A DNA stretch of 64,000 bases from Microbacterium sp. B35-30 (GTDB lineage Bacteria; Actinomycetota; Actinomycetes; Actinomycetales; Microbacteriaceae). The translations under genes and the position numbers were made by a program. A model generated the notes under the pieces. That model was given only the letters and a program-made list of their open reading frames with translations. It did no database searches and was not told the DNA's origin. Location: positions 1 to 64,000 of the forward strand of contig NZ_MWLQ01000012.1 of the NCBI RefSeq assembly GCF_010634855.1, in the 5' to 3' direction. Shown here piece by piece: positions 15,392 through 46,549 of this stretch (within the stretch, counting starts at the first letter, position 1; each line of letters opens with the position of its first letter).

Positions 15392-17515
15392 TCAGTTATG
15401 CACCGACACCTCCGTGCCGACGCGCGACCAGTCGTAGATGAACTTCGCGGCGTCGTCCCACATGTTGACGCAACCGTGGCTCTGCGGGAATCCGAGGGAG
15501 GAACGGAAGGCGCTGGCTCCGTGGAAGGCGATGTCCGGATAGAACCAGGTGACCCACGGCACGTCCTCGGTGCAGTAGCTGTTCACCGCGTTCGGGTTGT
15601 AGCACAGGGCGCCCATGTCGGTGATGGACGTGTACGCGTAGACGGTGAAGTTCCCGGTCGGGGTCCCGGTGCTGGCGGCCCCCGACGAGATCACGAACGA
15701 CTGGACGACCTGATCGTTCTCGAAGAGCGTCGCCCGCTGCGTGCTGAGGTTGACATCGATCCGCCGGGCGAGGTTCGTCGTCGTGAACGGGGTCGCGGTG
15801 ACCGGCAGCTGGTAGACGCCGTCACCGCCGGCGAGCTGGTCGGCGAACGCGGCCGCGATGCCGTCGGTGCTGTCGAGGCTGCGGCCCTCGACGCCGCTGG
15901 AAACCGGGTTGGGCAGCGCCTTGCCTGCGCTGTTCGTCACGACTGTCGCGTTGACGGCGTCGCGGTTCACGAGGCCAGGCAGGGTGTCGACGACGCTCTG
16001 GATCTTCTGCTCGTCGACATCGACGATGATCGCGCCGTCGTCGCCCTGGTCGAGCGTGATCCACGATGCCGCCACCGCGGGATCCACGGGCACGGTGCGC
16101 TCGTCGCCGACGTAGAAGCCGATGTTCGAGAGCACGCCGTTGAGCTTCGTCGCCGTGTCGGCGGCGGTCTCGGTCGAGATCGCCGCAGGGATCTCAGCGA
16201 TGACAGGGTCGACGTTCACGCTCGCCTTGCCGGCTTCGAACGCGGCCTGAAGCGCCTGCTGCACGGTGGCGACATCGACGCCGCTGCCGGACGCGGCGGG
16301 CGTCGAGACATACGACGTCGACGCGGTGTCGAATGCGACCGTCGCGTCGATCGGGTCCGTGAAGAGGTCGGGCGCGGCATTCTGCAATGACTCGACCGCG
16401 GTGGGCGTGTCGATCTCGACCTCGGCGCCGGTCTGAGCGAACCACGCCGTCGGGTTCCACATCGGGTGCTCGGCGAAGGCCGCGTCGGCGAGGGCCTGGG
16501 CGTCGACCGACGCTCCCAGCTCGGCGCCTGTGAGCTCGACGTCGCCGCCGTCGCCGGTGAGCACCACCGTGGTCTCGGCCAGCCGCTGCTCGATCGCGCC
16601 GGCGGCGGCACCGGGTGTCATCCAGCCGACCGCGACGCCGGCGACCGTGGTGCCCGGGGCGATCAGCAGCAGCGAGGTGACGACGAGGCCGAGGACGGCG
16701 ACGCCGGCTGCCGCGCTGATCCAGATTGCGGTGTGCTTCTTCTTGGGCTTCGGCTCCGCGGGAGCCCAGGAGTACACGGTTCCATCCGCCGCGGTTTCGG
16801 CGGGAGCTGTCGAGGGAGCGAAGTCGGTTGTGGGTGCGGGTGCCACGGCCGGAGCGGGCGCGACGTCGAGGGATGCGGCCGGTGCCAGCACGGCGGTCGC
16901 CACGGCGACGGTCTCGAGGTCGGCGTCGGGCGCGTTCTCGGACGCGACCTCTGCGACGTCGGAGTCGACCTCGGCCTCCGGCCCGTCGGCGTCGTCCGTC
17001 TCGACCTCCGACTCCGGCTCATCGGCGTCAGGCTCTTCGGCCGCGGGCTGCTCGGCGTCGGAATCCTCCGCCTCGGGCTCCGTGGCCGCGGTCTCTTCGG
17101 CCTCGGGCTCCGTGGCCGCGGTCTCGTCGGCCTCGGGCTCCGTAGCCTCGGGCTCTTCGACCTTCGCCTCGGGCTCTTCGGTCTCGGGGTCCGTGGCCTC
17201 GGTCTCTTCGGCCTCCGCCTCGGGCTCCGTGGCCTCGGGATCGGTAGCCTCGGGCTCCGCTGCGGATTCAGGCTCCGCAGTGTCGGCTTCGGCCTCGACG
17301 GCGGGGGAGACCTCAGTGCCCGCCGAGGGCACGTCGGAGTCCGCCGTGACGGCGTCCGCCTGAGTCACGGCATCCTGTTCGTCCGAAGCGTCCGAAGCGT
17401 CCGACGGCTCGAAATCGGCCGTGGCGGTCGCCTCGGTGTCGACGTCCTGCTCAGTGTCGACGGCGTCATCCCCGGACGCCTTTCCGGCATGTGACTGGGT
17501 CGCCAGATCTGTCAC
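15392..17515 (-). CDS. Membrane-anchored L,D-transpeptidase with acidic N-terminus
   Basis: 707 aa. Residues about 1-230 are extremely acidic (Glu/Asp/Ala/Pro, with TEPEAEETAA-type repeats) and would be cytoplasmic. One membrane helix follows (IWISAAAGVAVLGLVVTSLLLIAPG), then two putative peptidoglycan-binding domains of the PG_binding_4 type. The C-terminal YkuD domain has the HGASAFRSSLGFPQSHGCVNM signature with catalytic C682. It should form 3-3 cross-links in peptidoglycan or attach proteins to it. GTG 17515 is chosen from a GGGGTGAGGC site. The acidic tail far exceeds the normal family length, and its role is unknown. Confidence 0.9.
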   Translation of the reverse strand: MTDLATQSHAGKASGDDAVDTEQDVDTEATATADFEPSDASDASDEQDAVTQADAVTADSDVPSAGTEVSPAVEAEADTAEPESAAEPEATDPEATEPEAEAEETEATDPETEEPEAKVEEPEATEPEADETAATEPEAEETAATEPEAEDSDAEQPAAEEPDADEPESEVETDDADGPEAEVDSDVAEVASENAPDADLETVAVATAVLAPAASLDVAPAPAVAPAPTTDFAPSTAPAETAADGTVYSWAPAEPKPKKKHTAIWISAAAGVAVLGLVVTSLLLIAPGTTVAGVAVGWMTPGAAAGAIEQRLAETTVVLTGDGGDVELTGAELGASVDAQALADAAFAEHPMWNPTAWFAQTGAEVEIDTPTAVESLQNAAPDLFTDPIDATVAFDTASTSYVSTPAASGSGVDVATVQQALQAAFEAGKASVNVDPVIAEIPAAISTETAADTATKLNGVLSNIGFYVGDERTVPVDPAVAASWITLDQGDDGAIIVDVDEQKIQSVVDTLPGLVNRDAVNATVVTNSAGKALPNPVSSGVEGRSLDSTDGIAAAFADQLAGGDGVYQLPVTATPFTTTNLARRIDVNLSTQRATLFENDQVVQSFVISSGAASTGTPTGNFTVYAYTSITDMGALCYNPNAVNSYCTEDVPWVTWFYPDIAFHGASAFRSSLGFPQSHGCVNMWDDAAKFIYDWSRVGTEVSVHN

Positions 17516-22429: not shown

Positions 22430-23404
22430 ATGAAGGTCGGGCTGGACATCGGCGGCACCAAGACCGACGCGGTCGCGGTCGACGACACGGGGGCGATCGC
22501 CGGGCGAATCCGCATGGCGACCGGCTGGGGCCCGGATGCCGTGGGCCAGACGGTCGTCGACGCGGTGCGCTCACTCGGGGCCGAGGCAGGTGTGGACCTG
22601 TCGGCCGTGCGGTCGGTGGGGGTCGGCATCCCGGGTCAGATCGAGCCCGGTTCCGGTCGCGTCGTGCACGCGGTGAACCTCGGCGTCGACGAGATGGACC
22701 TGGCGGCGATGGTCGCACCGAAGCTGCGCGTCGTCGCCCCGGGACTGCGGCTGCCCGTGCAGGTCGAGAACGACGTCAAGGCGGCGGCGCTCGGCGCGCA
22801 GGCGCTGCACACCCGCAACGGCTCGCCGGCGCCCGGTTCGATGGCGTACCTGAACCTCGGCACGGGCATCGCGGCGGGAATCGTGTCGGACGGCGTGCTG
22901 TGGCGCGGCGCGCGCGGCACCGCCGGCGAGGTCGGGCATATCTCCGTGGACCCGAACGGCCCGCTGTGCCGCTGCGGTCAGCGCGGCTGCATCGAGGCGT
23001 TCGCGGGCGGGGGAGCGATCGCCGAGCGGTGGGCGAAGCGCTCGGCGCTGCCGGTGCGCGGCGTCTTCGACGCCGCCGATGAGGGCGATCCGTCGGCTCG
23101 GCAGCTGCGAGCCGGACTCGCGCGCGGTGTGGCGGCCGCGGTCCGGGTACTGGTGCTGACGGCGGACGTCGATATCGTGGTCCTCGGAGGGGGTGTGACG
23201 GCCTTGGGCGATCGACTGATGACGGATGTCGCAGCCGAGCTGTCGGCCAGTGCCGAGGCATCCCCGTTCATGCGCTCGCTGCACCTGACCGACCGGGTCG
23301 AGCTGCTGCCGCCGGGTTCACCGGCCGCCGCTCTCGGCGCGGCGCTGGTGGGTGCCGAGGGCGACGCCGCACACGACGCCCAGGAGGCATTGGTTCATGG
23401 CTGA
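22430..23404 (+). CDS. ROK-family sugar kinase (GlcNAc kinase / glucokinase type)
   Basis: 324 aa without a DNA-binding domain, so an enzyme rather than a regulator. It shows the ATP loop GLDIGGTKTDAVAVD, VENDVKAAALGA, the EVGHISVDPNG block with its catalytic-region histidine, and the zinc site CRCGQRGCIEAF. By position before nagB it most likely makes GlcNAc-6-P (or glucosamine-6-P) from imported sugar. The mannan locus has an unrelated BadF-type kinase, so the window carries two kinase solutions. Confidence 0.88.
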   Translation: MKVGLDIGGTKTDAVAVDDTGAIAGRIRMATGWGPDAVGQTVVDAVRSLGAEAGVDLSAVRSVGVGIPGQIEPGSGRVVHAVNLGVDEMDLAAMVAPKLRVVAPGLRLPVQVENDVKAAALGAQALHTRNGSPAPGSMAYLNLGTGIAAGIVSDGVLWRGARGTAGEVGHISVDPNGPLCRCGQRGCIEAFAGGGAIAERWAKRSALPVRGVFDAADEGDPSARQLRAGLARGVAAAVRVLVLTADVDIVVLGGGVTALGDRLMTDVAAELSASAEASPFMRSLHLTDRVELLPPGSPAAALGAALVGAEGDAAHDAQEALVHG

Positions 23405-24176
23405 GATCGTCATCGTCCGAGACAAGGCAGCCGCGGGTGCCCTCGTCGCCGACCACATCGCGGGTCTGCTCCGCGCGAACCCCGAGACGGTGCTGGGCCT
23501 TGCCACCGGCTCGACGCCGGTGCCCGTCTACGAGGCGCTGCGCTCGCGCCTCGACGGCGTCGACGTGTCACGTGTGCGCGGGTTCGCGCTCGACGAGTAC
23601 GTCGGCATCGACCCGGCGCACCCTGAGAGCTACCGCTCGGTCATCACGCGCGAGGTCGTCGAGCCACTCGGCCTCGATCCGTCGCGCATCCGCACGCCGG
23701 ACGGCACCCCCGAGGGCATCGAGCACCACGGCGAGGAGTACGAGGCCGCCATCCGCGAGGCGGGCGGCATCGACCTGCAGATCCTCGGCATCGGCACCGA
23801 CGGCCACATCGGGTTCAACGAGCCCGGTTCGTCGTTCGCGTCGCACACCCGCGTGAAGACCCTGACCGAGCAGACCCGCCGCGACAACGCCCGCTTCTTC
23901 GACTCGATCAACGATGTGCCCATGCACTGCATCACGCAGGGCCTCGGCACCATCCTCCGTGCACGGCACCTCGTGCTGCTGGCCTTCGGCGAGGGCAAGG
24001 CCGCCGCCGTCGCGGGCGCCGTGGAGGGGCCGCTGTCAGCGTCGCTGCCCGGTTCGGCGATCCAGCTGCACCCCCGCGCGACCGTGGTCGTCGACGAGGC
24101 TGCGGCGTCGCAGCTCGCCCGCGCCGACTACTACCGCTACGCCTACGACAACAAGCCCGACTGGCAGGGCATCTGA
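23397..24176 (+). CDS. nagB: Glucosamine-6-phosphate deaminase
   Basis: 259 aa, full length. Converts glucosamine-6-P to fructose-6-P and ammonia, feeding amino sugars into glycolysis. Family marks are LGLATGSTPVPVYEAL, FALDEYVGI with the catalytic aspartate, and GIGTDGHIGFNEPGSSF containing the active-site histidine. ATG 23397 overlaps the kinase stop by 8 bp. Together with nagA (29836-30972) it completes the GlcNAc-6-P catabolic route in this region. Confidence 0.96.
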   Translation: MAEIVIVRDKAAAGALVADHIAGLLRANPETVLGLATGSTPVPVYEALRSRLDGVDVSRVRGFALDEYVGIDPAHPESYRSVITREVVEPLGLDPSRIRTPDGTPEGIEHHGEEYEAAIREAGGIDLQILGIGTDGHIGFNEPGSSFASHTRVKTLTEQTRRDNARFFDSINDVPMHCITQGLGTILRARHLVLLAFGEGKAAAVAGAVEGPLSASLPGSAIQLHPRATVVVDEAAASQLARADYYRYAYDNKPDWQGI

Positions 24177-24192
24177 GCCGTAGTCTGACGGC

Positions 24193-24942
24193 ATGACGGA
24201 TGCCGCCGACGGCGTGACGGTCCCCCCACCCGTTCCACCGGGCACCGGCGCGCCGCGCGACGTCGCCGGGGCGGCAGGCCCGGCGCGGGCCCGCGCGGGC
24301 GGGCTGGCGCGGACCCTCATGCTCGGCGGTGTGCTCCTCATCGTGAGTGCTGTCGCCGCGTTCGCGGCGCCGAACGCGTTCGGCGCGAGTCTGCCGTTCC
24401 ACACTGCCCTCTACTGGGGTTCGGTCGCCGCGTTCTCGACGAGCGTGCTCGTCTTCGCCTTCGGAGTGGGGCGCGGCGGCAGCATCATCGAGCGACGCCC
24501 GTTGGGCGTGACGGCTGCGCTCGTCCTCGCGCTGTGGCCGTTCGCGGAGCGCGTGCTGACGTGGGCGATGCCCTTCGGCGACGGCACCGCGGAGTTTTAT
24601 CAGGTCTGGGGGTACGTCTCACTGACCGTGGAGATCGCGGCGGCGGTCGTGCTCGTCGTGCAGATCGCGCGCGCCGGGGTCGTGTCCGGACGGCTGCGCT
24701 GGGCACCCGCGTGGGCGCTCGCCGCCGTCGTCGTGCCGCAGATCCTCGCCCAGGTGCTGCTGATCGCGATGGGGATCGACCAGAGCAGGACCGAGGTCGA
24801 CGGGCTGATCCTGCTCTTCGGGCTGGGACAGCTTGCGTCTTTCGCGGCGCCGGTGACCCTCGGCATCCTGGCCATCGTCCTCGCGCAACGTCCCCCTGCA
24901 CCCTACGGCGACCCCGTGCAGATCTATCCGCCCGCCGCCTGA
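24193..24942 (+). CDS. Multipass membrane protein, function unknown
   Basis: 249 aa. A proline/glycine/alanine-rich cytoplasmic N-terminus (about 40 aa) is followed by about six hydrophobic helices (MLGGVLLIVSAVAAFAAP, AALVLALWPFAERVLTW, ILAIVLAQ and others). I recognise no domain. It starts 16 bp after nagB and may be co-transcribed, or may have its own start (TAGTCT at 24181-24186 is a possible -10 placing +1 at the ATG). Confidence 0.7.
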   Translation: MTDAADGVTVPPPVPPGTGAPRDVAGAAGPARARAGGLARTLMLGGVLLIVSAVAAFAAPNAFGASLPFHTALYWGSVAAFSTSVLVFAFGVGRGGSIIERRPLGVTAALVLALWPFAERVLTWAMPFGDGTAEFYQVWGYVSLTVEIAAAVVLVVQIARAGVVSGRLRWAPAWALAAVVVPQILAQVLLIAMGIDQSRTEVDGLILLFGLGQLASFAAPVTLGILAIVLAQRPPAPYGDPVQIYPPAA

Positions 24943-24973
24943 CAGAGCCCTTGGGCCGACGTGCCCGTGCCGA

Positions 24974-25042
24974 GATCAGGTGATTTCGCCGGGGTAGGGC
25001 GTTTCGGCGCGAATTGTCCTACCTCCGCGAAGTCACCTGATC
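24974..25042. terminator. Extended imperfect palindrome between convergent genes
   Basis: GATCAGGTGAtTTCGC (24974-24989) pairs with GCGAAGTCACCTGATC (25027-25042) with one mismatch. An inner GTAGG/CCTAC pair extends the stem, giving a roughly 69-nt cruciform-like element. It sits between convergent genes and is probably a bidirectional terminator. The arms differ from the other repeat families here. Confidence 0.65.
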
Positions 25043-25062
25043 CGGCGACGCGACGGGCGGAT

Positions 25063-26454
25063 TCAGGGGGCGAAGACCTTGCCGGGGTTGAGGATGCCCT
25101 GCGGGTCGAAGACGCGCGCGATCTGCCGCTGCAGCTCCCATTGATCGTCGCCGAGCTCGTCGGCGAGCCAGCGGCGCTTCAGCACGCCCACGCCGTGCTC
25201 GCCGGTGAGGGTGCCGCCCAGACGCAGGGCGGCGCGGAAAAGGTCGTCGGCCGCCGCCCAGATGTGCTCGGGCGCCTCGACCACGCCGAACTCGTCGGGC
25301 TCGCCCGCGAAGATGAAGTTCGGGTGCAGGTTGCCGTCGCCCGCATGGGCGACGGTCGGGATGACGATGCCGTGCTCGCGCTCGACGCGCGCGATCTCGT
25401 CGAACATCGCGGGAAGGGCGCTGCGAGGCACCGAGACGTCTTCGATGAGCGCCGTGCCGAGCGCCTCCATGGCCGGGTGCATCGCGCGGCGGATCGCGAG
25501 GAGCCGCTCGCCCTCCGCCGGGTCGTGCGACACCGCCACGTTCCCGCCGGCGACGCGCAGCACCGCGGCGATCGCGTCGGCCTCGGCGACGGCCGTCGCC
25601 CCGTCCGTCTGAATCGTGAGCTGGGCGGCGCCCGGCGTGGGCGCGTCGAGGGACAGCAGAGCGTGCACGGCCGCGAGGGAAGCGGCATCCATCAGCTCCA
25701 TGATCGCGGGCTGCGCACCGGACGCGGTGACGGCGGCGGATGCCTCGGCCGCTGTCCGCACGTCGGCGAAGGTGGCGGCGATCGTGCAGACCTGGCCGGG
25801 CACCAGCCGGCGCAGCTTCAGCGTCGCGCCGACGACGACGCCGAGCGTCCCCTCTGAGCCGATGACGAGCGACGTCAGATCGAGACCGGTCACGCCTTTC
25901 ACGGTGCGGTGCCCGAGACGCAGCAGGCGTCCGTCTGCGAGCACGACATCGACGCCGAGCACCGCATCACGCACCGCGCCGTACTTCGCGCAGAGCAGGC
26001 CCCCGGCGCCGGTCGCGATGTTGCCGCCGACCGTGGAGATGGCACGGCTCGCGGGATCAGGCGCCCACCAGAGTCCATAGGGCTGGAGTGCGGCGTTCAG
26101 GTCGGCGTTCAGGATGCCGGGCTCGACCACGGCGAGGAGATCGTCGGGACGCACCTCGAGGATGCGGTCCATCCCGCGCACCGAGAGGGCGATCTCGCCG
26201 TGGCCCGCGTTCGCGCCGCCCGCGAGCCCGGTGCCGGCGCCACGCGTGACGACCGGGGTGCCGGTGCGGCTCGCGATGCGGAGGGTCTGCTGGACATCCG
26301 CGACACTGCGCGCGTGGACGACGGCGATCGGCTGACCGGATGCCGCATGCCCCGACTTGTCGGCGCGTGCGGCGGCGAGTGACTCCGGCGAGGTGTCGAC
26401 GCGGTCGCCGAGTTCCGCGCGCAGCAGGGTGAGCGCGTCCGCGCCCGGGTTCAC
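25063..26454 (-). CDS. FAD-linked oxidase, glycolate oxidase subunit GlcD / D-lactate dehydrogenase type
   Basis: 463 aa. The FAD_binding_4 (VAO/PCMH) domain has VVTRGAGTGLAGGANAGHGE, STVGGNIATGAGG and the VKGVTGLDL loop; the C-terminal FAD-oxidase domain has HAGDGNLHPNFIF and LTGEHGVGVLKR. It oxidises a 2-hydroxy acid such as glycolate or D-lactate and passes electrons on. I use GTG 26454, which overlaps the stop of the upstream small membrane protein (GTGA); longer readings run into that gene's shadow. Confidence 0.9.
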   Translation of the reverse strand: MNPGADALTLLRAELGDRVDTSPESLAAARADKSGHAASGQPIAVVHARSVADVQQTLRIASRTGTPVVTRGAGTGLAGGANAGHGEIALSVRGMDRILEVRPDDLLAVVEPGILNADLNAALQPYGLWWAPDPASRAISTVGGNIATGAGGLLCAKYGAVRDAVLGVDVVLADGRLLRLGHRTVKGVTGLDLTSLVIGSEGTLGVVVGATLKLRRLVPGQVCTIAATFADVRTAAEASAAVTASGAQPAIMELMDAASLAAVHALLSLDAPTPGAAQLTIQTDGATAVAEADAIAAVLRVAGGNVAVSHDPAEGERLLAIRRAMHPAMEALGTALIEDVSVPRSALPAMFDEIARVEREHGIVIPTVAHAGDGNLHPNFIFAGEPDEFGVVEAPEHIWAAADDLFRAALRLGGTLTGEHGVGVLKRRWLADELGDDQWELQRQIARVFDPQGILNPGKVFAP

Positions 26455-26843
26455 GACAGACGCCGGCGGCCGGCGATGACTCCCGCGGTGACCGCGACGA
26501 CGCCGAAGGCGAGCCCGATCCAGGCGTTGCCCATCGACCACCATGCGATGGTCGCCGACGCGTACACGAGCAGCTCGACGATCGCCCGCACGAACGGGTG
26601 CACCGCGAGCACCGCGCGCGGCGACACGAACAATGCCCAGAGCAGGATCGCGACCGCCGGTGCCGCGATTCCGGCGACGATGTTCCACGGGAACGGCCAC
26701 ATCGTGAAGCCCCACAGCGCGAGGGTGCCGAAGGCGAGGATCTCGCAGACGAAGGCGACCAGGTCGATCGCCGAGAGCGGCGCGCGGGTTCCCGGTGCCG
26801 GTTCGGCAGGGGGGACGGGCGTGACGTTCGGCGTGTCGGACAT
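26451..26843 (-). CDS. YrdB-like DUF2568 small membrane protein
   Basis: 130 aa with a proline-rich N-terminus and four hydrophobic helices (VAFVCEILAFGTLALWGF, NIVAGIAAPAVAILLWALFV, RAIVELLVYASATIAWW, WIGLAFGVVAVTAGVIAG). The FGTLALWGF and LWALFVSPRAV blocks are typical of DUF2568/YrdB proteins, whose function is unknown. It is translationally coupled (GTGA) to the downstream FAD oxidase. Confidence 0.75.
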   Translation of the reverse strand: MSDTPNVTPVPPAEPAPGTRAPLSAIDLVAFVCEILAFGTLALWGFTMWPFPWNIVAGIAAPAVAILLWALFVSPRAVLAVHPFVRAIVELLVYASATIAWWSMGNAWIGLAFGVVAVTAGVIAGRRRLS

Positions 26844-26866
26844 GGCCTCCAGTCTACGGCGGGGTG

Positions 26867-29419
26867 CTAGGACATCGCGGCCGCAGGAAGGGCGGGCGAC
26901 GCTGCCGTGACCGGTTCCGCGTCGTCGGCGAGCGGCGCCGCGGCCGTCGGCAGAACCGGCGACGCAGCGGTCGGAGCCTCGGGAGTGGCGGGTTCGGAGG
27001 CCCGCGTTCGGGATGCTGCCACGGACGCGGTTGCGGAAGCTCCCCGCTCCGACGGGGTCGGACCGGCCGGTGCGGTGGATGCGCCCGCGGCGGCGGGGGT
27101 CGCCGGGGTGGCGGGGGTCGCCGGGGTGGCGGGCTCCGCCGGTTCGGCGGGGTCGGCCGGGGTTGCGGCTGCGCCGGGGGTCGCCGGGCGGGCCGGGGTT
27201 GCGGCTGCGCCGGGGGCCGCCGCGCGGGCCGGGGTCGCGGGTGTGGCGGGAACGGCGGGTGTCGTCGCGGTCGCCGGGCTTGCCGGAGTCGCCGGAGAGG
27301 CCGCGGCCGCGCCGGCGGGCGTCGAGACGCGGCCTGGGGTGAGGGATGCCGAGCGGGTCGCGGAGCGGCTCGCCGCGGCATCCGTCCCTGCGTCGTCCTG
27401 AGAAAGGCCGACCGGCGCTGGCGTCGTCGCCGCTGCTGACGCCGGCGCGTCGGTACGGGTGGAGCGCAGGCTCTGTCCGGAACGCAACGCGCGCGGCGTG
27501 GTCCGGGTGCCGATGGCGAGGATCACGGTGTCGGTGTCGGTGTCTTCCGTCTGCGCGCCGAGCACGGCAGCGATCCCGTCGGCGTTCGCGTTGCCGTTGC
27601 TCATCCGCGAGGCGTGGACCTTGCCGTTCGCCGCGCCGTTGCCGGTGCCGGTCGGAGTGCCGTTGCCTGTCGTGCCGTCGTTGCCGGTGGTCCCGCCGTT
27701 GCCGTTGCCGGTGCCGGTCGGAGTGCCGTTGCCGGTGCCGGTCGGAGTGCCGTTGCCCGTCGTGCCGTCGTCGCCGGTGGTCCCGCCGTTGCCGTTGCCG
27801 GTCCCGTTGGTCGGAGTGCCGTTGCCTGTCGTGCCGTCGTTGCCGGTGGTCCCGCCGTTGCCGTTGCCGGTCCCGTTGGTCGGAGTGCCGTTGCCTGTCG
27901 TGCCGTCGTTGCCGGTGGTCGCGCCCTCGCCCTCGCCGCTCCCAGGTCCGGGGTCGGTGCCGACGTCGCCACCGGCACCGCCGGCGCTGCCGTCGCCGTT
28001 CTCCGCCGCCGACCCCTCGCCACCGGCCTGCTGGTCGCCGGAGCCATCGCTCGTGCCGCTCCCGGTGCCCGCTCCGCCCGCGGTGCCGACGTCGGTCACC
28101 ACCGGGATGTCAGCAGGGCCGGGCCCGGGCTCGGAGAGCTCGAGGGGTGTGTCGGAAGTGTCGTCGGTGATCCCGGGCACTCCGGCCTGTGTGGGCGCGG
28201 TGATGTCGACCTTGCTCGTCGGCGCGGGCTCCGGGGTCGTCGGGGGGAGTGCCACGGCTGCCGCGACGACGCCGCCGACCACGACGAGGCTCGCCGCCGC
28301 CAGCCCTGATGCCGCACCGATCCCCGCGAACGCTGCTCCGCCCGCCGCCGCGGTCACCGCCGTCGTACCGGCCGCCGTCGCGGCCGCTCCGGCTCCGGCG
28401 GCAGCGCCGCCGGCGCCGGCGCTCGAGCCGATCGCAGCCGCACCTCCACCCAGGCCGGAGCCCACGGTGAACGTGCCGCCTGCGGTGGCACCCGTGCCCA
28501 CGACGGTCGTCGATCCTGCGGCGCCGGCCATGCCCACCGGGCTGCCCGCAGCCGCGCCCTGCACGACGGCCGACGGCATCGCCGGCATCGACGCCAGCGC
28601 GACCAGCGGGGCGCCGCCGCCTTGCACGCTCGCCAGGTAGCCGGCCGTGCCGGCAGCGCCCAGGGCGAGGGGCAGCAGCACCAGCGCCAGGCGGCCCGAC
28701 ACCTCCTTGGCCTCGCTCGCGACGATCGAGCAGCGGGCGCAGCCGGCGAGGTGGTGCTCGAGCTTCGCGTGGTCGCGGCGACCGAGATTGCGGCGGGCGT
28801 AGGCGCCCAGGTGCTCGATCGTCCATTGGCAATCCGACCCGTCCGCCACCGAGCGCAGGTGCGCCTGGATCCACGCTTCGCGCAGTCCCTCGCGCGCGCG
28901 GAAGGTGAGCTGGGCGACCGCGGTCGGCTTCATCCCCAGGAGCGGGGCGATCTCGGCGGGCTTCATCCGCTCGATCTCGGAGTACCAGAGCACCTCCTGC
29001 CACCGGGTCGGCAGGCTCCGGAACGCCTGATGCGTGAGGCTGCGGTCGAGCGCGGCCTCGCTCTCGTGCTCGGCGGCCGACAGATCCTCGACGCCGTCGA
29101 GCTCGTCGTACGGCGTCTCGCGTCGCGCGCGGCCCCAGGCCGCGGCGGTGTTGCGGATGCTGGTGAAGAGGTACGCGCGGAACGACCCGGTCGGCCCGCC
29201 GCCGTTGACGATGGAGTGGTAGATGCGCGTGTACGCCTCTTGCACGAGGTCGTCGGCATCGAGGCTCGAGGTCATGTTGCGGGCCACGGTGACACCGGCG
29301 CGATAGTGGCGCCGCCACAGCTCGCCGAATGCGGCAGTGTCGCCCAAGCGCGTGCGCAGCACCAGGTCGGCGTCTGCGACGACGTCGGGATCGTGCTCGC
29401 GCACTTCCTCGTGATCCAT
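26867..29419 (-). CDS. ECF-type sigma factor fused to zinc-finger anti-sigma domain, membrane segment and low-complexity tail
   Basis: 850 aa from ATG 29419. Residues about 20-90 form sigma region 2 (DADDLVQEAYTRIYHSI) and about 125-185 region 4 (RWQEVLWYSEIERMKPAEIAPLLG, in part, with KPTAVAQLTFRAREGLR). About residues 195-235 hold a zinc-finger (HLAGCARC, H-x3-C-x2-C) as in zf-HC2 anti-sigma domains. A hydrophobic segment (LALVLLPLALGAAGTAGYLA) and a second (AAASLVVVGGVVAAAVAL) follow, then about 500 aa of Gly/Thr/Asn repeats and Ala/Pro/Thr. This looks like a self-tethered sigma factor, released by proteolysis or controlled by an outside signal; that mechanism is inference. The start is set where sigma homology begins. 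Confidence 0.85.
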   Translation of the reverse strand: MDHEEVREHDPDVVADADLVLRTRLGDTAAFGELWRRHYRAGVTVARNMTSSLDADDLVQEAYTRIYHSIVNGGGPTGSFRAYLFTSIRNTAAAWGRARRETPYDELDGVEDLSAAEHESEAALDRSLTHQAFRSLPTRWQEVLWYSEIERMKPAEIAPLLGMKPTAVAQLTFRAREGLREAWIQAHLRSVADGSDCQWTIEHLGAYARRNLGRRDHAKLEHHLAGCARCSIVASEAKEVSGRLALVLLPLALGAAGTAGYLASVQGGGAPLVALASMPAMPSAVVQGAAAGSPVGMAGAAGSTTVVGTGATAGGTFTVGSGLGGGAAAIGSSAGAGGAAAGAGAAATAAGTTAVTAAAGGAAFAGIGAASGLAAASLVVVGGVVAAAVALPPTTPEPAPTSKVDITAPTQAGVPGITDDTSDTPLELSEPGPGPADIPVVTDVGTAGGAGTGSGTSDGSGDQQAGGEGSAAENGDGSAGGAGGDVGTDPGPGSGEGEGATTGNDGTTGNGTPTNGTGNGNGGTTGNDGTTGNGTPTNGTGNGNGGTTGDDGTTGNGTPTGTGNGTPTGTGNGNGGTTGNDGTTGNGTPTGTGNGAANGKVHASRMSNGNANADGIAAVLGAQTEDTDTDTVILAIGTRTTPRALRSGQSLRSTRTDAPASAAATTPAPVGLSQDDAGTDAAASRSATRSASLTPGRVSTPAGAAAASPATPASPATATTPAVPATPATPARAAAPGAAATPARPATPGAAATPADPAEPAEPATPATPATPATPAAAGASTAPAGPTPSERGASATASVAASRTRASEPATPEAPTAASPVLPTAAAPLADDAEPVTAASPALPAAAMS
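27640..27930 (-). repeat. Tandem repeat encoding Gly/Thr/Asn-rich tail of the sigma fusion
   Basis: About four copies of a 69-bp unit (shorter in one copy) encode GGTTGNDGTTGNGTPT followed by NGTGNGN. Copies are nearly identical in DNA, so length is likely to vary by slippage or recombination. The repeat encodes the predicted extracytoplasmic linker and carries no recognised domain. Confidence 0.85.
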
Positions 29420-29835
29420 GGGTCCCCCAGCTCCGCGGGCGCTCGCCATCGGCGGGCGTACCGCGTTCGCAGCGCGATGCGGCGCGATCGTTCCATTGTG
29501 GTCGCCACTGCGCGATTTGACCAGTGCTCCGCGGCGTCGGCAGCCCTGCGGTCGGAACGCCGCGCAGGAAGGGCCCGCGGCCTCGGCGCCAGAAATTCTC
29601 GTGAACTCGCGTAATAGAACGGGGGTGGCGCGGTCTCTTTGGTCAGAGTGGCTGGCCGCCCTTGTGTGGGGCACGTCGGCGGCCGCCCTACCGCGTTGAA
29701 TTCGCGGGCTTGGCGGGGCTCGAAGGTATCTCGGGGGAGGGACCTTCGGCCCCGCCTTCACGTGTCCGCCGGGCGATGACACCGCCCGCACTCCGCGGTG
29801 CCGCATCGCGCGGTCCGGCGGCGGGGACGCGGTCG
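29420..29835. other. 416-bp intergenic region upstream of sigma fusion, downstream of nagA
   Basis: This gap holds the 5' region of the sigma fusion gene (minus strand) and the 3' region of nagA. Apart from the nagA terminator at 29712-29756 I see no convincing gene, and no well-spaced -35/-10 pair on the minus strand. The AT-richer patch at 29591-29620 (AGAAATTCTC, GTAATAGAAC) is the likeliest promoter location. Confidence 0.5.
29712..29756 (-). terminator. nagA terminator hairpin
   Basis: GGCGGGGcTCGAAGGT (29712-29727) pairs with ACCTTCGGCCCCGCC (29742-29756) through about 14 bp with one bulge and a 14-nt loop. It lies 80 bp beyond the nagA stop on the minus strand and is the likely end of the hexosaminidase-nagA transcript. 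Confidence 0.75.
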
Positions 29836-30972
29836 TCAGGCGTCGCGGCCGGCGACCCACACCCGACGCACGGTCAGGTCATCGTTCAGCAGCACCGCGT
29901 CCGCCAGTGCGCCGACGTCGAGGTGCCCGAGGTCGTCTCGCCCGATCGCGTGCGCAGGCTGGGCGCCGAGCGCATGCGCGACGACGTCGAGGGGCACTCC
30001 CGCGCTTGCCACGTTGCGCAGCGCCACGTCCTGCGTGAGGGTCGAGCCCGCGATCGCGCCGCCCTGCTCCAGTCGTGCCACGCCGTCGGTCACCTGTACG
30101 GCGAGACCGCCGAGGTCGTAGCGGCCGTCCTGTGACCCGGCGGCCGCCATCGCATCCGTGATGAGGGCGATCCGGTCGCCGGCGACGGCGAAGAGCGTCG
30201 CGATCAGCTCGAGGTCGACGTGCACGCCGTCGGCGATGACCTCGAGCGTCACGCGGTGGTCGCGCAGGGCCGGGACGACCGGACCCGGAGCGCGGTGATG
30301 GATGCCGGGCATCGCGTTGAACGCGTGCGTGATCAGCGTCGCGCCGGCGTCGAATGCCCGGCGCGTGGTCGCGGCATCCGCGTCGGTGTGTCCGACGGCG
30401 ACCTTCACACCGGCCTCGACGAAGCGCTGGATCGCCTCGAACGCACCCGGTCGTTCCGGTGCCAGGGTGACCTGGCGGATCGTGCCGCGTCCGGCCTCGA
30501 TGAGTCGGTCGACGGATGCCTCATCCGGCGCCCGCAGCAGGGACTCGGTGTGCGCACCCTTGTGTACGGGGTCGAGGAAGGGCCCTTCGAGGTGCGAGCC
30601 GAGGATGGTGGGATCGGCGTCGCTGAGATCGGCGACCATGGCCACGCGCGCCGCGAGCACGTCGATCGGCGCGGTGATGAGCGACAGCACGGCGCGCGTG
30701 GTGCCGTGCGAACGATGGATGGCGCGCGCGGCGGCGATGGCTTCCGGGCCGTCGTCGAAACTCGCGCCACCACCGCCGTGCCCATGGATGTCGATGAAAC
30801 CGGGGACGAGGCATCCGCCCGCGCCGTCCACCGTGTCGTCGCCGCGCGGCGGTGTGCCGCCGATGCCCGTCGCCGCGACTCGGCCGTCGTCGAACAGCGC
30901 CCACGCATCGCGCCGATCGCTGTCGACCGACGCGGAGCCGAGCAGGCGGATGGAGTGGACGAGGGTGCTCAT
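29836..30972 (-). CDS. nagA: N-acetylglucosamine-6-phosphate deacetylase
   Basis: 378 aa amidohydrolase. Hydrolyses GlcNAc-6-P to glucosamine-6-P and acetate, the step before NagB. Visible signatures are PGFIDIHGHGGGGASFDD, the metal ligand region GSHLEGPFLDPVHKGAH, VAVGHTDAD, LITHAFNAMPGIHHRAPG, and the catalytic aspartate in LITDAMAAAGS. It lies 48 bp behind the hexosaminidase gene on the same strand, so one transcript probably carries both. GlcNAc released by the hexosaminidase would be imported and phosphorylated first by the 19-23 kb genes. Confidence 0.96.
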   Translation of the reverse strand: MSTLVHSIRLLGSASVDSDRRDAWALFDDGRVAATGIGGTPPRGDDTVDGAGGCLVPGFIDIHGHGGGGASFDDGPEAIAAARAIHRSHGTTRAVLSLITAPIDVLAARVAMVADLSDADPTILGSHLEGPFLDPVHKGAHTESLLRAPDEASVDRLIEAGRGTIRQVTLAPERPGAFEAIQRFVEAGVKVAVGHTDADAATTRRAFDAGATLITHAFNAMPGIHHRAPGPVVPALRDHRVTLEVIADGVHVDLELIATLFAVAGDRIALITDAMAAAGSQDGRYDLGGLAVQVTDGVARLEQGGAIAGSTLTQDVALRNVASAGVPLDVVAHALGAQPAHAIGRDDLGHLDVGALADAVLLNDDLTVRRVWVAGRDA

Positions 30973-31020
30973 GGGGTGCTCCAGGTCACTCGGTGGTGGT
31001 GGTGGCGGTGGCGGTGAACG

Positions 31021-32679
31021 TCATTCGGTGACCCAGGGGATCTCGTCGGACGGGTGGAAGCCGATGCCCATGCTGGTCCACAGCGGGCCGAGTGCGCCCA
31101 CGCGTTCACGGAAGGATGCCCAGGTGCGCAGGTCGCTGGCGCCGGTCGCCGGCGACCAGGCGGCCTCCGCCGCAGCGGCGGCACGGGGGAAGGCCATGGT
31201 GTCGATGTCGGCCGCGGTGCGGATCGTCTCGGTCCACAGCGGCGCCTCGACGCCGAGGATGCCCGAGTCGTCGATGCCGTCGACGATGTCGGACGGCTCC
31301 CACGTATAGGCGCGCTCGATGCTCGTCGGGCCGTTGGCCCACGTGAGGCCCAGTTCCGGACCGTTCGGGTACTTCATGTCGAGGTAGATCGCGTCGGCGG
31401 GGGAGAGGATCAGCTGCCCGCCGTTGTCGACGAACGCGCGGGCCCTGTCGGACACGCCCTCCTGCGGGGTGAGGTAGCCCCAGTACTGCCCGATCGTGGT
31501 GTCGGCGAGGCCTGCCGCGGCCCCGGCCTCGTGCCACGCCACCGGCGTCTTGCCGAGGTCGGCGATAATGTCGCTGGCCCGCGCGACGAAGACCGCGAAG
31601 TCCTCGTCGGTCGTCGAGAGCGACTCATCGCCGCCGAAGTGCAGGTACGGTCCCGGCGTCATCGCGGCGAGCTCACCGAACACGTCCGCGACGAAGTCGT
31701 ACGTCGCCTCGTCGCGCGTCTTCAGCGACGAGAAGCCGACAGCCATGCCCTGGTACGGAACGCCGGGGCGCGGCTCCTCGCCGCCGTAGTCGCGGATGAT
31801 CTCGCGCATGTGGTCGCTGATGGTCGGCTCTTCGGCGAGTTCGGGGTAGGCGAGGCCGACCGCGTGGGTGTGGCCCGGCATGTCGATCTCGGGCACCACG
31901 ATCATGTGACGGGATGCCGCGTACTCGACGATCTCGCGATAGTCCGCCTTCGTGAAGAAGCCGCCGGGCGTGCCCTGGCCCTCGGTGCTGTCGCCGCCCA
32001 CCGACGTGCCCGAGGCTCGCTCGGTCAGCTCCGGCCGCGAGTCGAGCTGGATGCGCCATCCCTGATCGTCGGTGAGGTGCAGGTGCAGCGCGTTCAGCTT
32101 CAGTGACGCCGCGCGGTCGATGTATCCCTTGACCGTCTCGAGCGGGTGGAAGTGGCGCGCGACGTCGAGCATGGCGCCGCGGTAGGCGAAGCGCGGCGCG
32201 TCTTCGATCGTGACCGCCGGCACCGTCCATTCGGCATCCTCGCCCTCCTGCTGGCCGCCGGCGCTGTTGCGGGCGATCAGCTGGCCGAGCGTCTGCACGC
32301 CGTAGAACAGGCCGGCCGCGTCGGCGCCGGTGACGACGACGGATGCCTCATCCACGGCGATCCGGTAGGACTCAGGGGAACCGGACCCCGGGTCGATCCG
32401 GAGGTCGATGCCGGACTCCACTGCGCCCTTCGCCGGCGTGAAGCCCGCGCGGGCCTCGACGATCGCCGCGAGGGTGGCCGCGGCATCCGCTTCTCCGGTC
32501 ACCGTCGTGTCGGGCGTGAGCCGGAACGGCGCACCGGAACCCGCCTCGATCGAGGCGGGAGCGGGGACGACGGCAGGAAGCGACACAGTGTCTCCATTCT
32601 GTGCGACCGGAGCGCAGCCGGCCAGCAGCGAGGCGGCGAGGAGCGCCGCGGCGGCGGTGCGTCCTCGTCGACGTTTCAT
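31021..32679 (-). CDS. GH20 beta-N-acetylhexosaminidase, lipoprotein
   Basis: 552 aa. The N-terminus MKRRRGRTAAAALLAASLLAGC is a lipoprotein signal, so the enzyme acts on the outer face of the membrane. A GH20b domain precedes the catalytic barrel, with FAYRGAMLDVARHFHPL, the catalytic pair D351-E352 in HFGGDES, and VAWHEAGAAAG. It removes terminal GlcNAc from chitin oligosaccharides or peptidoglycan fragments. ATG 32679 abuts the operator-like site at 32680-32694; in-frame upstream codons reach into the divergent glyA leader and are not used. Confidence 0.94.
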   Translation of the reverse strand: MKRRRGRTAAAALLAASLLAGCAPVAQNGDTVSLPAVVPAPASIEAGSGAPFRLTPDTTVTGEADAAATLAAIVEARAGFTPAKGAVESGIDLRIDPGSGSPESYRIAVDEASVVVTGADAAGLFYGVQTLGQLIARNSAGGQQEGEDAEWTVPAVTIEDAPRFAYRGAMLDVARHFHPLETVKGYIDRAASLKLNALHLHLTDDQGWRIQLDSRPELTERASGTSVGGDSTEGQGTPGGFFTKADYREIVEYAASRHMIVVPEIDMPGHTHAVGLAYPELAEEPTISDHMREIIRDYGGEEPRPGVPYQGMAVGFSSLKTRDEATYDFVADVFGELAAMTPGPYLHFGGDESLSTTDEDFAVFVARASDIIADLGKTPVAWHEAGAAAGLADTTIGQYWGYLTPQEGVSDRARAFVDNGGQLILSPADAIYLDMKYPNGPELGLTWANGPTSIERAYTWEPSDIVDGIDDSGILGVEAPLWTETIRTAADIDTMAFPRAAAAAEAAWSPATGASDLRTWASFRERVGALGPLWTSMGIGFHPSDEIPWVTE

Positions 32680-32694
32680 GTAAAGAGTCCTAAC
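32680..32694 (-). promoter_or_regulatory. ROK-type operator directly before hexosaminidase start
   Basis: On the minus strand, GTTAGGACTCTTTAC ends at the base before ATG 32679. It is palindromic around its centre (GTnAnGA-n-TCnTnAC) and, with the flanking TT, matches 13 of 17 positions of the reverse complement of the site ahead of the ROK repressor (17716-17732). This suggests one regulator for import and catabolism of GlcNAc/chitobiose. Confidence 0.6.
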
Positions 32695-32732
32695 AAAAGG
32701 AATGTGACTCAGCCTAGCGGGTCGGGTTCGGT

Positions 32733-32738
32733 TATGCT
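32733..32738 (+). promoter_or_regulatory. Likely -10 of glyA-folD promoter
   Basis: TATGCT immediately before the riboswitch is a good actinobacterial -10. No convincing -35 lies 16-18 bp upstream. Confidence 0.4.
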
Positions 32739-32739
32739 C

Positions 32740-32820
32740 GGGTTGTCGCGACTGGCGTTGAGGTGGGTCACCACCGGGGAGCGACGGACTACGGCATTCG
32801 ACCGCACGCCTGGGCCGATG
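32740..32820 (+). promoter_or_regulatory. ZTP (pfl-motif) riboswitch
   Basis: The leader of glyA shows the conserved pfl pattern: GCGACTGGCG (32747-32756), a GGTGGGTCACCACC hairpin running into CGGGGAGCG (32761-32783), and the 3' block CCGCACGCCTGGGC (32802-32815). This motif binds ZTP/ZMP, which accumulates when 10-formyl-tetrahydrofolate is short, and commonly controls glyA, folD and purine genes, exactly the genes that follow. A short GGCAC/GTGCC hairpin downstream may belong to the expression platform. Identified from memory of the motif, not from a covariance model. Confidence 0.85.
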
Positions 32821-32875
32821 TGATTCCCGGCACCCCGTGCCGCGCACCCCGAAAGCCGCAGTCAAGGAGATCGTC

Positions 32876-34150
32876 ATGACCGATCAGTACTTCAATGCCC
32901 CGCTCGCCGAGGTCGACCCCGAGATCGCGCAGGTGCTCGAGCGTGAACTCGAGCGTCAGCGCGGCTACCTCGAGATGATCGCCTCCGAGAACTTCGTGCC
33001 GGTCTCGGTGCTGCAGTCGCAGGGCTCGGTGCTCACCAACAAGTACGCCGAGGGCTACCCGGGCCGTCGCTACTACGGCGGGTGCGAAGAGGTCGACGTG
33101 GCGGAAGAGCTGGCGATCGAGCGCGCGAAGTCGCTGTTCGGCTCGGAGTTCGCCAACGTCCAGCCGCACTCCGGCGCCTCTGCCAACGCCGCCGTGCTGC
33201 ACGCGATCGCGCGCCCCGGCGACACGCTGCTCGGCCTGTCGCTCGACCAGGGCGGTCACCTGACGCACGGCATGAAGATCAACTTCTCGGGCCGTCTCTA
33301 CAACATCGTCGCCTACGGCGTGAATCCCGAGACGAGCACGATCGACATGGACGAGGTGCGCCGTCTCGCCGTCGAGCACCAGCCCAAGGTCATCATCGCG
33401 GGATGGTCGGCGTACCCGCGTCAGCTCGACTTCGCCGCGTTCCGCGCGATCGCCGACGAGGTCGGCGCGCTGCTCTGGGTCGACATGGCCCACTTCGCCG
33501 GCCTCGTCGCGGCCGGGCTGCACCCGAACCCGGTGCCCCACGCCCACGTCGTCTCGTCGACCGTGCACAAGACGATCGGCGGCCCCCGCTCGGGCTTCAT
33601 CCTCACGAACGACGCCGACGTCGCGAAGAAGATCAACTCGGCGGTGTTCCCGGGCCAGCAGGGTGGCCCGCTGATGCACGTGATCGCCGCCAAGGCGACC
33701 GCGTTCAAGCTCGCGGCGACGCCGGAGTTCAAGGAGCGCCAGGAGCGGGTGCTCAGCGGTGCGCACATCATCGCCGAGCGGCTGTCCCAGCAGGACGTGA
33801 AGGATGCCGGCATCTCGATCCGCTCCGGCGGCACCGATGTGCACCTCGTGCTCGTCGACCTCCGCAACGCCGCGATCGACGGCAAGCAGGCCGAGGACCT
33901 CCTGCACGAGATCCACATCACCGTGAACCGCAACGCGGTGCCGAACGATCCGCGGCCGCCCATGGTCACCTCGGGCCTGCGCATCGGCACCCCGGCCCTG
34001 GCGACGCGCGGCTTCGGCGACGGCGAGTTCACGGAGGTCGCAGACGTGATCGCGCTGGCGCTCCTTCCCGGCGCCGATGTCGAGGCACTGCGCGCCCGCG
34101 TTGCCGCGCTGACCGCCGCCTTCCCGCTCTACCCGGGACTGCAGCAGTGA
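32876..34150 (+). CDS. glyA: Serine hydroxymethyltransferase
   Basis: 424 aa PLP enzyme, converting serine and tetrahydrofolate to glycine and 5,10-methylene-THF. Family blocks are [50 protein letters not shown] and the PLP lysine in [19 protein letters not shown] 32876 follows an AAGGAGA site; a longer in-frame reading from 32837 has no ribosome site. Its stop overlaps the folD start (GTGA), and a ZTP riboswitch precedes it. Confidence 0.97.
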
Positions 34151-44837: not shown

Positions 44838-46549
44838 CGTCCGGCCTCCCGGTCTTCGAGCGTTGCAGTTCCCTGCGGCCGCTGCGTCTGGGTCGCCGGG
44901 CGTTCGCCGGAAACTGCCGCGCTCGCCTCTCGCGCGGCTTCGAACCGCGCCCGCCACTCGGCGTTCATCGGGAAGAGCCCGTCGACCGGATGCCCCTCCG
45001 CGACGCGCTCGGCGATCCACGCGTCCTCGTCCTCCTGGGCGAGCGCGGCGTCGACGACCTCCTCGACGATGTCCGGCGGGATCACCACGACCCCGTCGGC
45101 GTCGCCGACGATGACGTCCCCCGGCTGGACCGTCGTGCCGCCGCACGCGATCGTGAGGTCGGCGTCCCACGGCACGTGCTTGCGGCCGAGGACGGCCGGG
45201 TGGGCGCCGGAGGAGTAGACCGGAATGCCGACGGCCGCGACGGCTGCGGCATCCCTGACTCCTCCGTCGGTGACGATGCCCGCGGCGCCGCGGGCGTGGG
45301 CGCGGATCGCGAGGATGTCGCCCAACGTGCCGGAGCCGGCGTCGCCGCGCGCCTCGATCACGACGACCTCGCCGTCGCCGACCGCGTCGAACACGCGCTT
45401 CTGCGCGTTGTAGCCGCCGCCGTGGGAGGCGAACAGGTCTTCGCGGTTGGGCACGAAGCGGAGCGTCCGCGCGGTGCCGACCAGCTTCGATTCCCTATCC
45501 GGCGAGTCGGCAGCGCGGAGCGGCCGCACGCCGTCGATGTGCACGTTGTTCAGCCCGCGCTTGCGCAGCTGCGCCGAGAGCCCCGCGACGGGCACGGCCT
45601 CGAGCTTCGCGCGGAGGGCGGCACTGATTCCGGTCGTTGAGCGAGCTTGCGAGTCGAAACGCGCTTCGCCGCCGTTGCTGGTCGGTTCGGCCCGTTTCGT
45701 CTCGCTCGTTCCTCGCTCGCTCAATGACCGCGTTCCTCGCTCGCTCAACGACCGGGAGGAGGCGGCCTCGCGGGACCCCCATGCCTCGGCGCGCTGCAGG
45801 TCGTCGGCTTCGGGAAGCGAGCCGAGGTCGGGGTCGAAGTCTGCGGCGCCCTGGACGACGGTGGTCACGAGTCGGCCGGAGGACGGCCCGCCGGGTACGT
45901 CGACCTCCACGTCGACCACATCGCCGGGCTGTGCCACGGAAGAGCCGGCCGGCGTCCCGGTGAGGATCACGTCGCCCGGCTCGAGGGTGAAGTGCTGCGA
46001 CAGGTCGGCGACGAGCTGCGTGAGCGGGAAGATCATGCCCGCGGCCGTGTCGTCTTGGACCAGGGCGCCGTTCAGCCAGGCCCGCACGCGCAGCGCGTCG
46101 GGGTGGACGAGGGCGGCGTCGATGAGGGCGGGGCCGATGGGCGTGTAGCCGTCGCCGCCCTTCGACCGCACGTTCGATCCCTTGTCGTTCGCGCGCAGGT
46201 CGTACAGGCCGAAGTCGTTGGCCGCGGTGATCCCGGCCACATGCGACCAGGCGTCGGCGAGCGATACGCGTCGCGCAGTGCTGCCGATCACGAGCGCGAT
46301 CTCACCCTCGAAGGCCAGCAGCTCGGTGCCCGCGGGCCGCTCGATGGTGCTTCCCGAGGCGGCGACAGAGCTCGACGGCTTGAAGAAGTACGACGGATGC
46401 TGCGGCCGGCGCCCGCGCTGATCCGCGCGGGACGCGTAGCTGAGGTGGACGGCGACGATCTTGCCGGGCCGGGCGGGGAGGGCCGCGAAGCGGGGATCGG
46501 CCGAGGATCCGGGATTCCCCGTGGCGACGGCATCCGTCTTCTCATCCAT
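44834..46549 (-). CDS. Fusion of FAH-family (HpaG-like) domain and RraA-like aldolase/decarboxylase domain
   Basis: 571 aa from ATG 46549 (GGGAG site). Residues about 30-235 are a fumarylacetoacetate-hydrolase fold with the metal motif FEGEIALVIG, AANDFGLYDLR and VILTGTPAGSS. Residues about 310-545 are RraA/HMG-aldolase-like (GTLGDILAIRAHARGAAGIV in part, then TDGGVRD with the Arg-Asp pair). A linker of about 40 aa (265-307, [20 protein letters not shown]) is encoded by a dispersed repeat. In hpa operons HpaG isomerises and decarboxylates the pathway acid; here a single FAH domain plus an RraA domain may share these two tasks. The activity split is inference. Confidence 0.85.
   Translation of the reverse strand: MDEKTDAVATGNPGSSADPRFAALPARPGKIVAVHLSYASRADQRGRRPQHPSYFFKPSSSVAASGSTIERPAGTELLAFEGEIALVIGSTARRVSLADAWSHVAGITAANDFGLYDLRANDKGSNVRSKGGDGYTPIGPALIDAALVHPDALRVRAWLNGALVQDDTAAGMIFPLTQLVADLSQHFTLEPGDVILTGTPAGSSVAQPGDVVDVEVDVPGGPSSGRLVTTVVQGAADFDPDLGSLPEADDLQRAEAWGSREAASSRSLSERGTRSLSERGTSETKRAEPTSNGGEARFDSQARSTTGISAALRAKLEAVPVAGLSAQLRKRGLNNVHIDGVRPLRAADSPDRESKLVGTARTLRFVPNREDLFASHGGGYNAQKRVFDAVGDGEVVVIEARGDAGSGTLGDILAIRAHARGAAGIVTDGGVRDAAAVAAVGIPVYSSGAHPAVLGRKHVPWDADLTIACGGTTVQPGDVIVGDADGVVVIPPDIVEEVVDAALAQEDEDAWIAERVAEGHPVDGLFPMNAEWRARFEAAREASAAVSGERPATQTQRPQGTATLEDREAGR
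45630..45755. repeat. Dispersed palindromic repeat, copy 2 (inside FAH-RraA gene)
   Basis: Starts CCGGTCGTTGAGCGAGC (45630-) and ends GCTCGCTCAACGACCGGG (-45755), with CGTTTCGTCTCGCTCG inside. The tip TGACCGCGTTCCTCGCTCGC shows a duplicated half. Its 126 bp equal 42 codons and keep the frame open between two enzyme domains. Confidence 0.9.

Follow-up and report, generated by a model that had tools for sequence, protein, structure and literature searches.

The window, which is the whole 64,000-nucleotide stretch of DNA analysed here, carries on its minus strand (26867..29419) a gene whose product joins an ECF sigma factor, an anti-sigma domain, a probable membrane anchor and a tail. The single open frame starts from an ATG at 29419, directly preceded by GGGGGA, and ends at a stop at 26867-26869, comprising 850 codons without an internal stop. 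An MDHEEVRE-like N-terminus is common to the close relatives. After the sigma gene come a DUF2568 membrane protein and an FAD-linked oxidase, with a GH20 hexosaminidase and nagB near. Upstream and on the same strand, nagA lies with its centre 1.5-2.5 kb from that of the sigma gene in 55 of the 61 Microbacterium-set loci besides that of the window (the set includes some draft bins titled otherwise), in 9/9 sister-genus loci, and in none of 29 further loci, namely 28 from other families and one Microbacterium paralogue; some of the six loci lacking nagA are short of flank. The usable rows of this synteny comparison were nagA, nagB, the FAD-oxidase, the 26451 membrane protein and glyA.

The sigma gene sits within an amino-sugar block (22430-32877) that holds a ROK-like kinase (22430-23404, assigned by a look at the sequence), nagB, nagA and the GH20 hexosaminidase. 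As the whole block is syntenic, this setting is suggestive only. Elsewhere in the window, short tandem repeats at 45707-45754 and 55761-55811 have the units CGTTCCTCGCTCGCTCAACGACCG and AGCAAGGAACCCGGTCGTTGAGCG, whose partly reverse-complementary look resembles that of dispersed palindromic elements. The dense 15/30/51-bp tandem repeats at 17012-17259 are probably a low-complexity stretch of another protein.

Homology search using residues 1-264 as the query revealed homologues in 219 of 295 Microbacterium genomes (E <= 1e-10; at most six matches per genome), and in 149 of 396 genomes sampled across the order (E <= 1e-12), covering 44 of 109 genera. Most among the matches listed in the genus and order searches have frames longer than 450 aa, and the nearest named homologues belong to Microbacterium yannicii, M. 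trichothecenolyticum and M. ureisolvens. The genome of the window itself (4.56 Mb, 71 contigs) has one gene of the fused type and two more sigma matches that are weak (28-29%); zf-HC2 exceeds its cut-off at one other place. At one locus of the set (L074, 3381-5562), a second fused sigma gene adjoins the first, with no CxxC at the place searched. The gene is real and well conserved, and its fused design is common and already described.

The sigma part and the anti-sigma domain

The N-terminal part of the protein contains sigma region 2 (residues 34-97; 29129..29320, minus strand; PF04542, E 7.7e-9), sigma region 4 (residues 130-177; 28889..29032, minus strand; PF08281, E 5.7e-7) and a predicted zinc-type class I anti-sigma domain (residues 197-230, with predicted helices to 239; 28730..28831, minus strand; PF13490, E 1.2e-7). 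All three matches exceed the Pfam cut-offs, and TIGR02937 matches with an E of 1e-20. The presence of sigma2 and sigma4, with sigma3 absent (no Pfam match between residues 34-97 and 130-177), corresponds to the ECF superfamily. Across the whole 850 aa, Pfam at E up to 1 gave nothing beyond sigma2, sigma4 and zf-HC2. The earlier note had read the order sigma2, sigma4, zinc finger, hydrophobic segment and tail within one protein, and the uninterrupted 850-aa frame together with the Pfam matches bears this out; an internal stop was looked for in 26867-29419 and none was found.

The AlphaFold2 model of the window protein has helices for sigma2, sigma4 and the anti-sigma domain, in addition to a separate helix at residues 244-266. 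Structural similarity search using Foldseek gave as its best eight matches the ECF sigma chains of sigma/anti-sigma complexes (SigW-RsiW, sigmaE-RseA and AlgU-MucA), with E values of 1.7e-4 to 5.7e-4 at whole-model TM-scores of ~0.2; the sigma chains of 1or7 and 5wuq are among the matches. A second structural look at the whole-chain model covers mostly residues 12-189, and so says nothing on the anti-sigma part.

The predicted zinc ligands are arranged as C197-x25-H223-x3-C227-x2-C230, which together with the predicted helices agrees with the class I form H/C-x25-H-x3-C-x2-C. C197, C227 and C230 are the only cysteines of the protein. Alignment of 53 sequences (the window included, the other members being 38-95% identical to it) revealed that H223, C227 and C230 are invariant, and that C197 is conserved in at least 90%. 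The helices spanning residues 196-239 were predicted in AlphaFold2 blocks with mean pLDDT values of 90-98.

Membrane anchor and topology

Beyond its zinc finger, the window protein has two hydrophobic segments, at residues 244-262 and 373-391, separated by 110 residues that contain no K, R, D or E. Nearly all complete homologues likewise possess two such segments. We compared the segments in 57 Microbacterium-set, 8 sister-genus and 34 other-family proteins, leaving out proteins that were truncated and short or had no CxxC where it was expected, and using a biological hydrophobicity scale. The second segment is more hydrophobic than the first in 56/57, 8/8 and 27/34 proteins, respectively. Its N-terminal flank is more positive than its C-terminal flank in 53 of the 57 (four equal), six of the eight (one equal, one opposite) and 33 of the 34 (one equal). 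In the other families, the 20 residues before the second segment have on average 1.21 K/R and 0.26 D/E, against 0.50 K/R and 2.62 D/E after it. By the positive-inside rule, the more positive flank of a membrane segment lies on the cytoplasmic side; these flank charges therefore indicate an N-in/C-out orientation, a pattern that on pooling holds in 92 of the 99 homologues, with six equal and one opposite. Accordingly annotated as N-in/C-out from its flank charges, the segment LAAASLVVVGGVVAAAVAL (residues 373-391; 28247..28303, minus strand) reaches a Kyte-Doolittle value of 2.51 and is probably the anchor, whereas the segment adjoining the zinc finger probably is not. The earlier note had assigned a single membrane segment following the zinc finger, which is right in that an anchor is predicted (373-391), but there are two hydrophobic segments and the anchor is probably the farther one. 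Its description of an ECF sigma factor with its own zinc-type inhibitor and a membrane tether agrees with the domain matches and the charge pattern.

The tails of several relatives offer a second clue to the topology. Big_6 was found at E <= 0.01 in 3 of 10 scanned relatives (two above the cut-off), and a second scan gave DUF11 in 3/8 (two above the cut-off), in addition to one match each to PLipase_C_C and CARDB. Pfam gave no tail match in six of the ten relatives of the first scan (Big_6 or Big_13 in three; sigma families only in L154) and in four of the eight of the second, PT repeats not counted. Taken together, the flank charges and the surface-type tail domains of relatives place the tail outside, which calls for an odd number of spans, and the first segment need not cross the membrane. 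A two-span hairpin, in which both segments cross, the Gly/Ala linker lies outside and the long tail is cytoplasmic, would accommodate the hydrophobicity of both segments in nearly all complete homologues, and a review's summary of the ECF53/ECF48 groups gives one to two membrane helices (PMC8999054). Such a hairpin, however, runs against the second-segment charges, which are N-in/C-out in 92 of the 99 homologues, equal in six and opposite in one, and would put the surface-type domains of several relatives inside; we consider it quite unlikely. The tail would also be outside with three spans, if a middle span were formed by the semi-hydrophobic ALAAMPSSVVQGAV stretch that follows the first segment. 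This stretch reaches a Kyte-Doolittle value of 1.6 in 27/57 Microbacterium-set homologues, but in 0/8 sister-genus and 2/28 further rows, and no window within the stretch of the present protein does so, which makes this arrangement very improbable.

The Gly/Ala/Ser linker (residues 267-372; 28304..28621, minus strand) is free of K, R, D and E in the window protein; across the 57 Microbacterium-set homologues, its 4793 residues include 4 K/R and 30 D/E. Since it is nearly chargeless in Microbacterium, charge cannot tell the side of the linker within the genus.

The first hydrophobic segment (residues 244-266, with a core at 244-262; 28622..28690, minus strand) carries P250 and G254, both invariant across the 53 aligned sequences. 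A glycine four residues after the proline occurs in 57/57 Microbacterium-set, 8/8 sister-genus and 28/33 other-family proteins. The segment was predicted as a helix at middling confidence, with block pLDDT values of 76, 61 and 56. Class I anti-sigma domains are described as three bundled helices and a linker, followed by a helix 4 that binds sigma2 (PMC7406223). Considering the invariance of P250 and G254, the separate predicted helix, the class I layout and the odd span number, the segment appears, with fair confidence, better read as a sigma-clamping helix 4 than as a membrane span; it could nonetheless span, being long enough in many homologues. Polar residues within the first segment were considered as a bar to spanning and set aside as a weak argument: 31 of 33 other-family members have a polar or charged residue, mostly at the edge of the 19-residue window.

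The outer tail and the Ig-like domain

The predicted outside tail (residues 392-850; 26870..28246, minus strand) begins with Gly/Thr/Asn repeats, continues as an Ala/Pro/Thr-rich stretch, and has a net charge of -25. The earlier note had estimated an external tail of about 500 aa; the outside location agrees with the charges and the relatives' domains, and the length beyond the second segment is 459 aa. It had further described 69-bp tandem repeats forming a long outside linker. Tandem repeats coding for Gly/Thr/Asn units are indeed present (27635..27943, minus strand), where TRF reports 3.2 copies of a 69-bp period (27724-27943, score 356) and 2.1 copies of a 90-bp period (27635-27826), but they make up only part of the tail; TRF also found 36/18-bp repeats within 27092-27295. 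The length variation that the note had anticipated is seen in whole-protein lengths of 581-850 aa among the 16 complete members of the window's clade.

Comparison with the nearest relative, L115, revealed how the tail evolves. The core is 96% identical, and L115 is 24 residues shorter at one place in the repeat block. The tail differs at first, second and third codon positions by 63/65/131 nucleotides, which argues that it behaves as a translated sequence. Within the tail, 84 codons are synonymous and 114 residue-changing among 417 compared, against 35 and 10, respectively, among 270 in the core; such fast evolution of the tail also fits decay. About 40 residues outside the membrane, the motif GPGPADIPVV (near residues 431-440; 28100..28129, minus strand) is conserved in the clade: GPxPADIP is recognisable in 17/17 rows, 16 by pattern and L123 (GPRPADIP) by alignment. 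Nine of the 62 loci have a contig end in the tail-coding part (L036, L042, L047, L050, L056, L065, L067, L124 and L130), a hint that assemblies break at the repeats; in a tenth locus, L069, the contig end falls in the core.

A domain profile grown from the C-terminus of one relative was run on 52 complete Microbacterium-set proteins, and found the domain in 30 of them: none of the 16 clade members (15 plus L046) has it, against 30 of the 36 others. The six non-clade proteins without a match are L062 and L063, whose tail ends look frame-shifted, L066, L068 and L071, which have other or diverged C-termini, and the distant L075. AlphaFold2 predicted this domain as a seven-stranded beta-sandwich with a pLDDT of 94.6. 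It is weakly like bacterial Ig domains, Big_3_5 and Big_6 each matching 2 of the 30 members at E <= 1. Structure searches with the domain model gave no specific relative (best Foldseek E 0.041; best Z 7.8, with an rmsd of 3.8 over 79 aligned residues), and the likeness behind the best Z may just reflect a common arrangement.

In a tree of 63 cores, built without truncated rows, L062, L063 and L075, the window belongs to a clade (support 100/99) whose 16 rows all lack the domain, adjoined by the carriers L126 and L125. The presence label requires 6 changes on this tree, versus 19.9 for shuffles. As judged from these sequences, the window's clade is one that lost the Ig-like domain, nested among carriers, and has fast-changing repeats in its place; outside the genus, absence of the domain may mean divergence only. 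If so, the tail in this lineage would act only as a length- and protease-dependent spacer, or via the short motif GPxPADIP.

The tail might also have become vestigial, so that after domain loss it senses nothing, control passes to transcription of the gene or slow turnover, and the repeats drift under loose constraint. The absence of the domain in the whole clade, the excess of residue-changing over synonymous codons in the tail relative to the core, and the varying whole length would all be expected on this account. A freely drifting tail, however, should sometimes lose its frame, whereas all 16 complete clade members keep a frame that runs on through a long tail, and GPxPADIP persists in every clade row; the seemingly frame-shifted tail ends of L062 and L063 occur outside the clade. 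A vestigial tail is therefore rather unlikely in our view.

Candidate element, proposed activation and known relatives

About 190 bp before the ATG lies a candidate regulatory element, GAGAC-N16-CTATTACGCG (29608..29637, minus strand), which was singled out by its association with the gene in the clade and across the genus; a slightly looser pattern has one match in the window versus 0.07 expected. A GAGAC-N16-YATTACG block is common to the sequences preceding the gene in 15 clade members. Of the Microbacterium-set loci, 60 have 300 bp or more of upstream sequence. In 42 of these, GAGAC reads toward the gene in a copy that starts 142-250 bp before it, and 31 have an inverted copy, of which 30 lie 43-89 bp before the gene and one (L042) at 209; both orientations occur in 19 loci and neither in six. 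All 17 clade loci have the element only as the GAGAC-toward-gene copy. The toward-gene and inverted copies occur in four and six of nine sister-genus loci, and in three and none of 29 further loci.

The strict pattern GAGAC-N16-YATTACGCG yields 97 sites in 64 of 149 genomes and none in the backwards control; a looser pattern is less specific, with 70 sites versus 7 backwards-control matches in 58 genomes. Of the 97 strict sites, at least 59 are found no more than 700 bp upstream of a sigma match; a further one (G085) precedes a sigma gene by 39 bp. Sites away from sigma genes occur in 30 of 108 sigma-bearing versus 3 of 41 sigma-lacking genomes (Fisher p 0.007, kinship ignored), and the three latter genomes have only 28-34% matches on a looser search. 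GAGAC reads toward the gene at 53 of 59 sites next to sigma genes. Of 38 loci with sites elsewhere, 24 have a gene 5' end beyond GAGAC and 12 have one on the ATTACGCG side (six have both and eight neither), as read from ORFs chosen by a codon-composition script, some of which may be wrong. The two sets of orientations disagree, and the element may be a promoter or an operator, in either direction: two unlike blocks at a fixed spacing fit a promoter, and the two orientations fit an operator equally. We lean slightly towards the element being the sigma factor's own target.

The genome of the window has a second copy (L205 6973-7002; C13:28972-29001), the only other site there with the YATTACG core, located between the 3' end of nrdF and a membrane protein with collagen-like GEQ repeats (PF01391). 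A similar collagen-like membrane protein stands beside the element in four other loci. Ten loci share by eye a flank GGCTCCGG..ATCCCC beside the element, possibly a leader or small RNA.

On the basis of domain order, conservation, charge pattern and domain loss, all read from sequence, we consider it probable that the protein combines, in one chain, an ECF-type sigma factor with a class I zinc anti-sigma domain of its own, is tethered to the membrane by one span with its tail outside, and is activated by cutting. At rest, anti-sigma helices 1-3 (196-239) and the hydrophobic, proline-kinked helix 4 (244-266) would clamp sigma2 and sigma4; the charge-free linker would run through the cytoplasm to the single span, oriented as in RseA or RsiW, with the 459-aa tail beyond it. 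For activation, an outside protease would cut close to the membrane, perhaps at or near GPxPADIP, and a site-2 protease would then cut the span and free the sigma part. Such proteolytic release is plausible, an M50 site-2 protease being found at one place in the same genome. For the mechanosensing role that the earlier note had raised as possible, the analysis gave evidence neither for nor against. A further proposal, that after loss of the folded sensor the disordered, repeat-built tail of evolving length is the sole outside reporter of a one-protein envelope sensor and gauges how far the juxtamembrane GPxPADIP is accessible to a protease or cell-wall pores, seems unlikely; were it true, a change in repeat number would directly retune the threshold of the sigma factor.

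Few of the fused sigma/anti-sigma proteins, which transduce a signal within one chain, have been tested, and the Ig-like carriers and non-carriers within one genus provide a natural domain-swap series on the role of the outer part. If the element were confirmed as the promoter of this sigma factor, it would supply a large group, present in 219 of 295 Microbacterium genomes, with a reporter and with a small regulon in which several of the proteins next to sites are surface or secreted ones. A literature search gave no such protein in Microbacterium and no repeat-tailed sigma factor in titles or abstract openings.

RseA/RsiW-type factors consist of an anti-sigma domain, a linker, a single N-in/C-out span and an outer part, a layout like that of the window protein, but their anti-sigma factor is a separate protein. 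IutY of Pseudomonas putida (ECF243) differs in the type of its anti-sigma part and is not known to have repeats. As described in the review, IutY is likewise a fused sigma and anti-sigma factor, released by Prc and RseP, but serves iron cell-surface signalling, unlike the window protein (PMC8999054).

Judged by their descriptions, the window protein has the layout of the actinobacterial ECF52/ECF53/ECF48 groups, in which a zinc finger and a membrane helix are fused C-terminal of sigma4. Published descriptions give these groups a zinc finger, long extensions and membrane helices that number one to two or vary, and expect proteolysis to activate them (PMC5826349, PMC8999054, PMC10766802). ECF53 and ECF48 share with the window protein the C-terminal fusion, the zinc finger, the one to two membrane helices and the activation expected by proteolysis, but their extensions are given as up to 400 residues, compared to ~660 residues after sigma region 4 here (PMC8999054). 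ECF52 is said to be confined to Actinobacteria, and proteolytic release has been proposed for it (PMC5826349). Its member SCO4117 of Streptomyces coelicolor, compared here by description only, likewise joins a sigma domain, a zinc finger (pfam13490), a membrane segment and a Pro-rich outer extension in one chain; its truncated form is reported to be partly active, and autoregulation was suggested (PMC5826349). SCO4117 ends in a carbohydrate-binding module (smart00776; PMC5826349), whereas the tail of the window protein has no Pfam match; no such terminal module was found in residues 231-850 by Pfam at E up to 1. Altogether, earlier work on ECF52/53/48 had already put forward the sigma/anti-sigma fusion and its proteolytic activation (PMC8999054, PMC5826349), and the present analysis adds to them the corrected anchor and tail side, the clade-specific loss of the outer domain, as read from sequence, and the candidate element GAGAC-N16-YATTACGCG.
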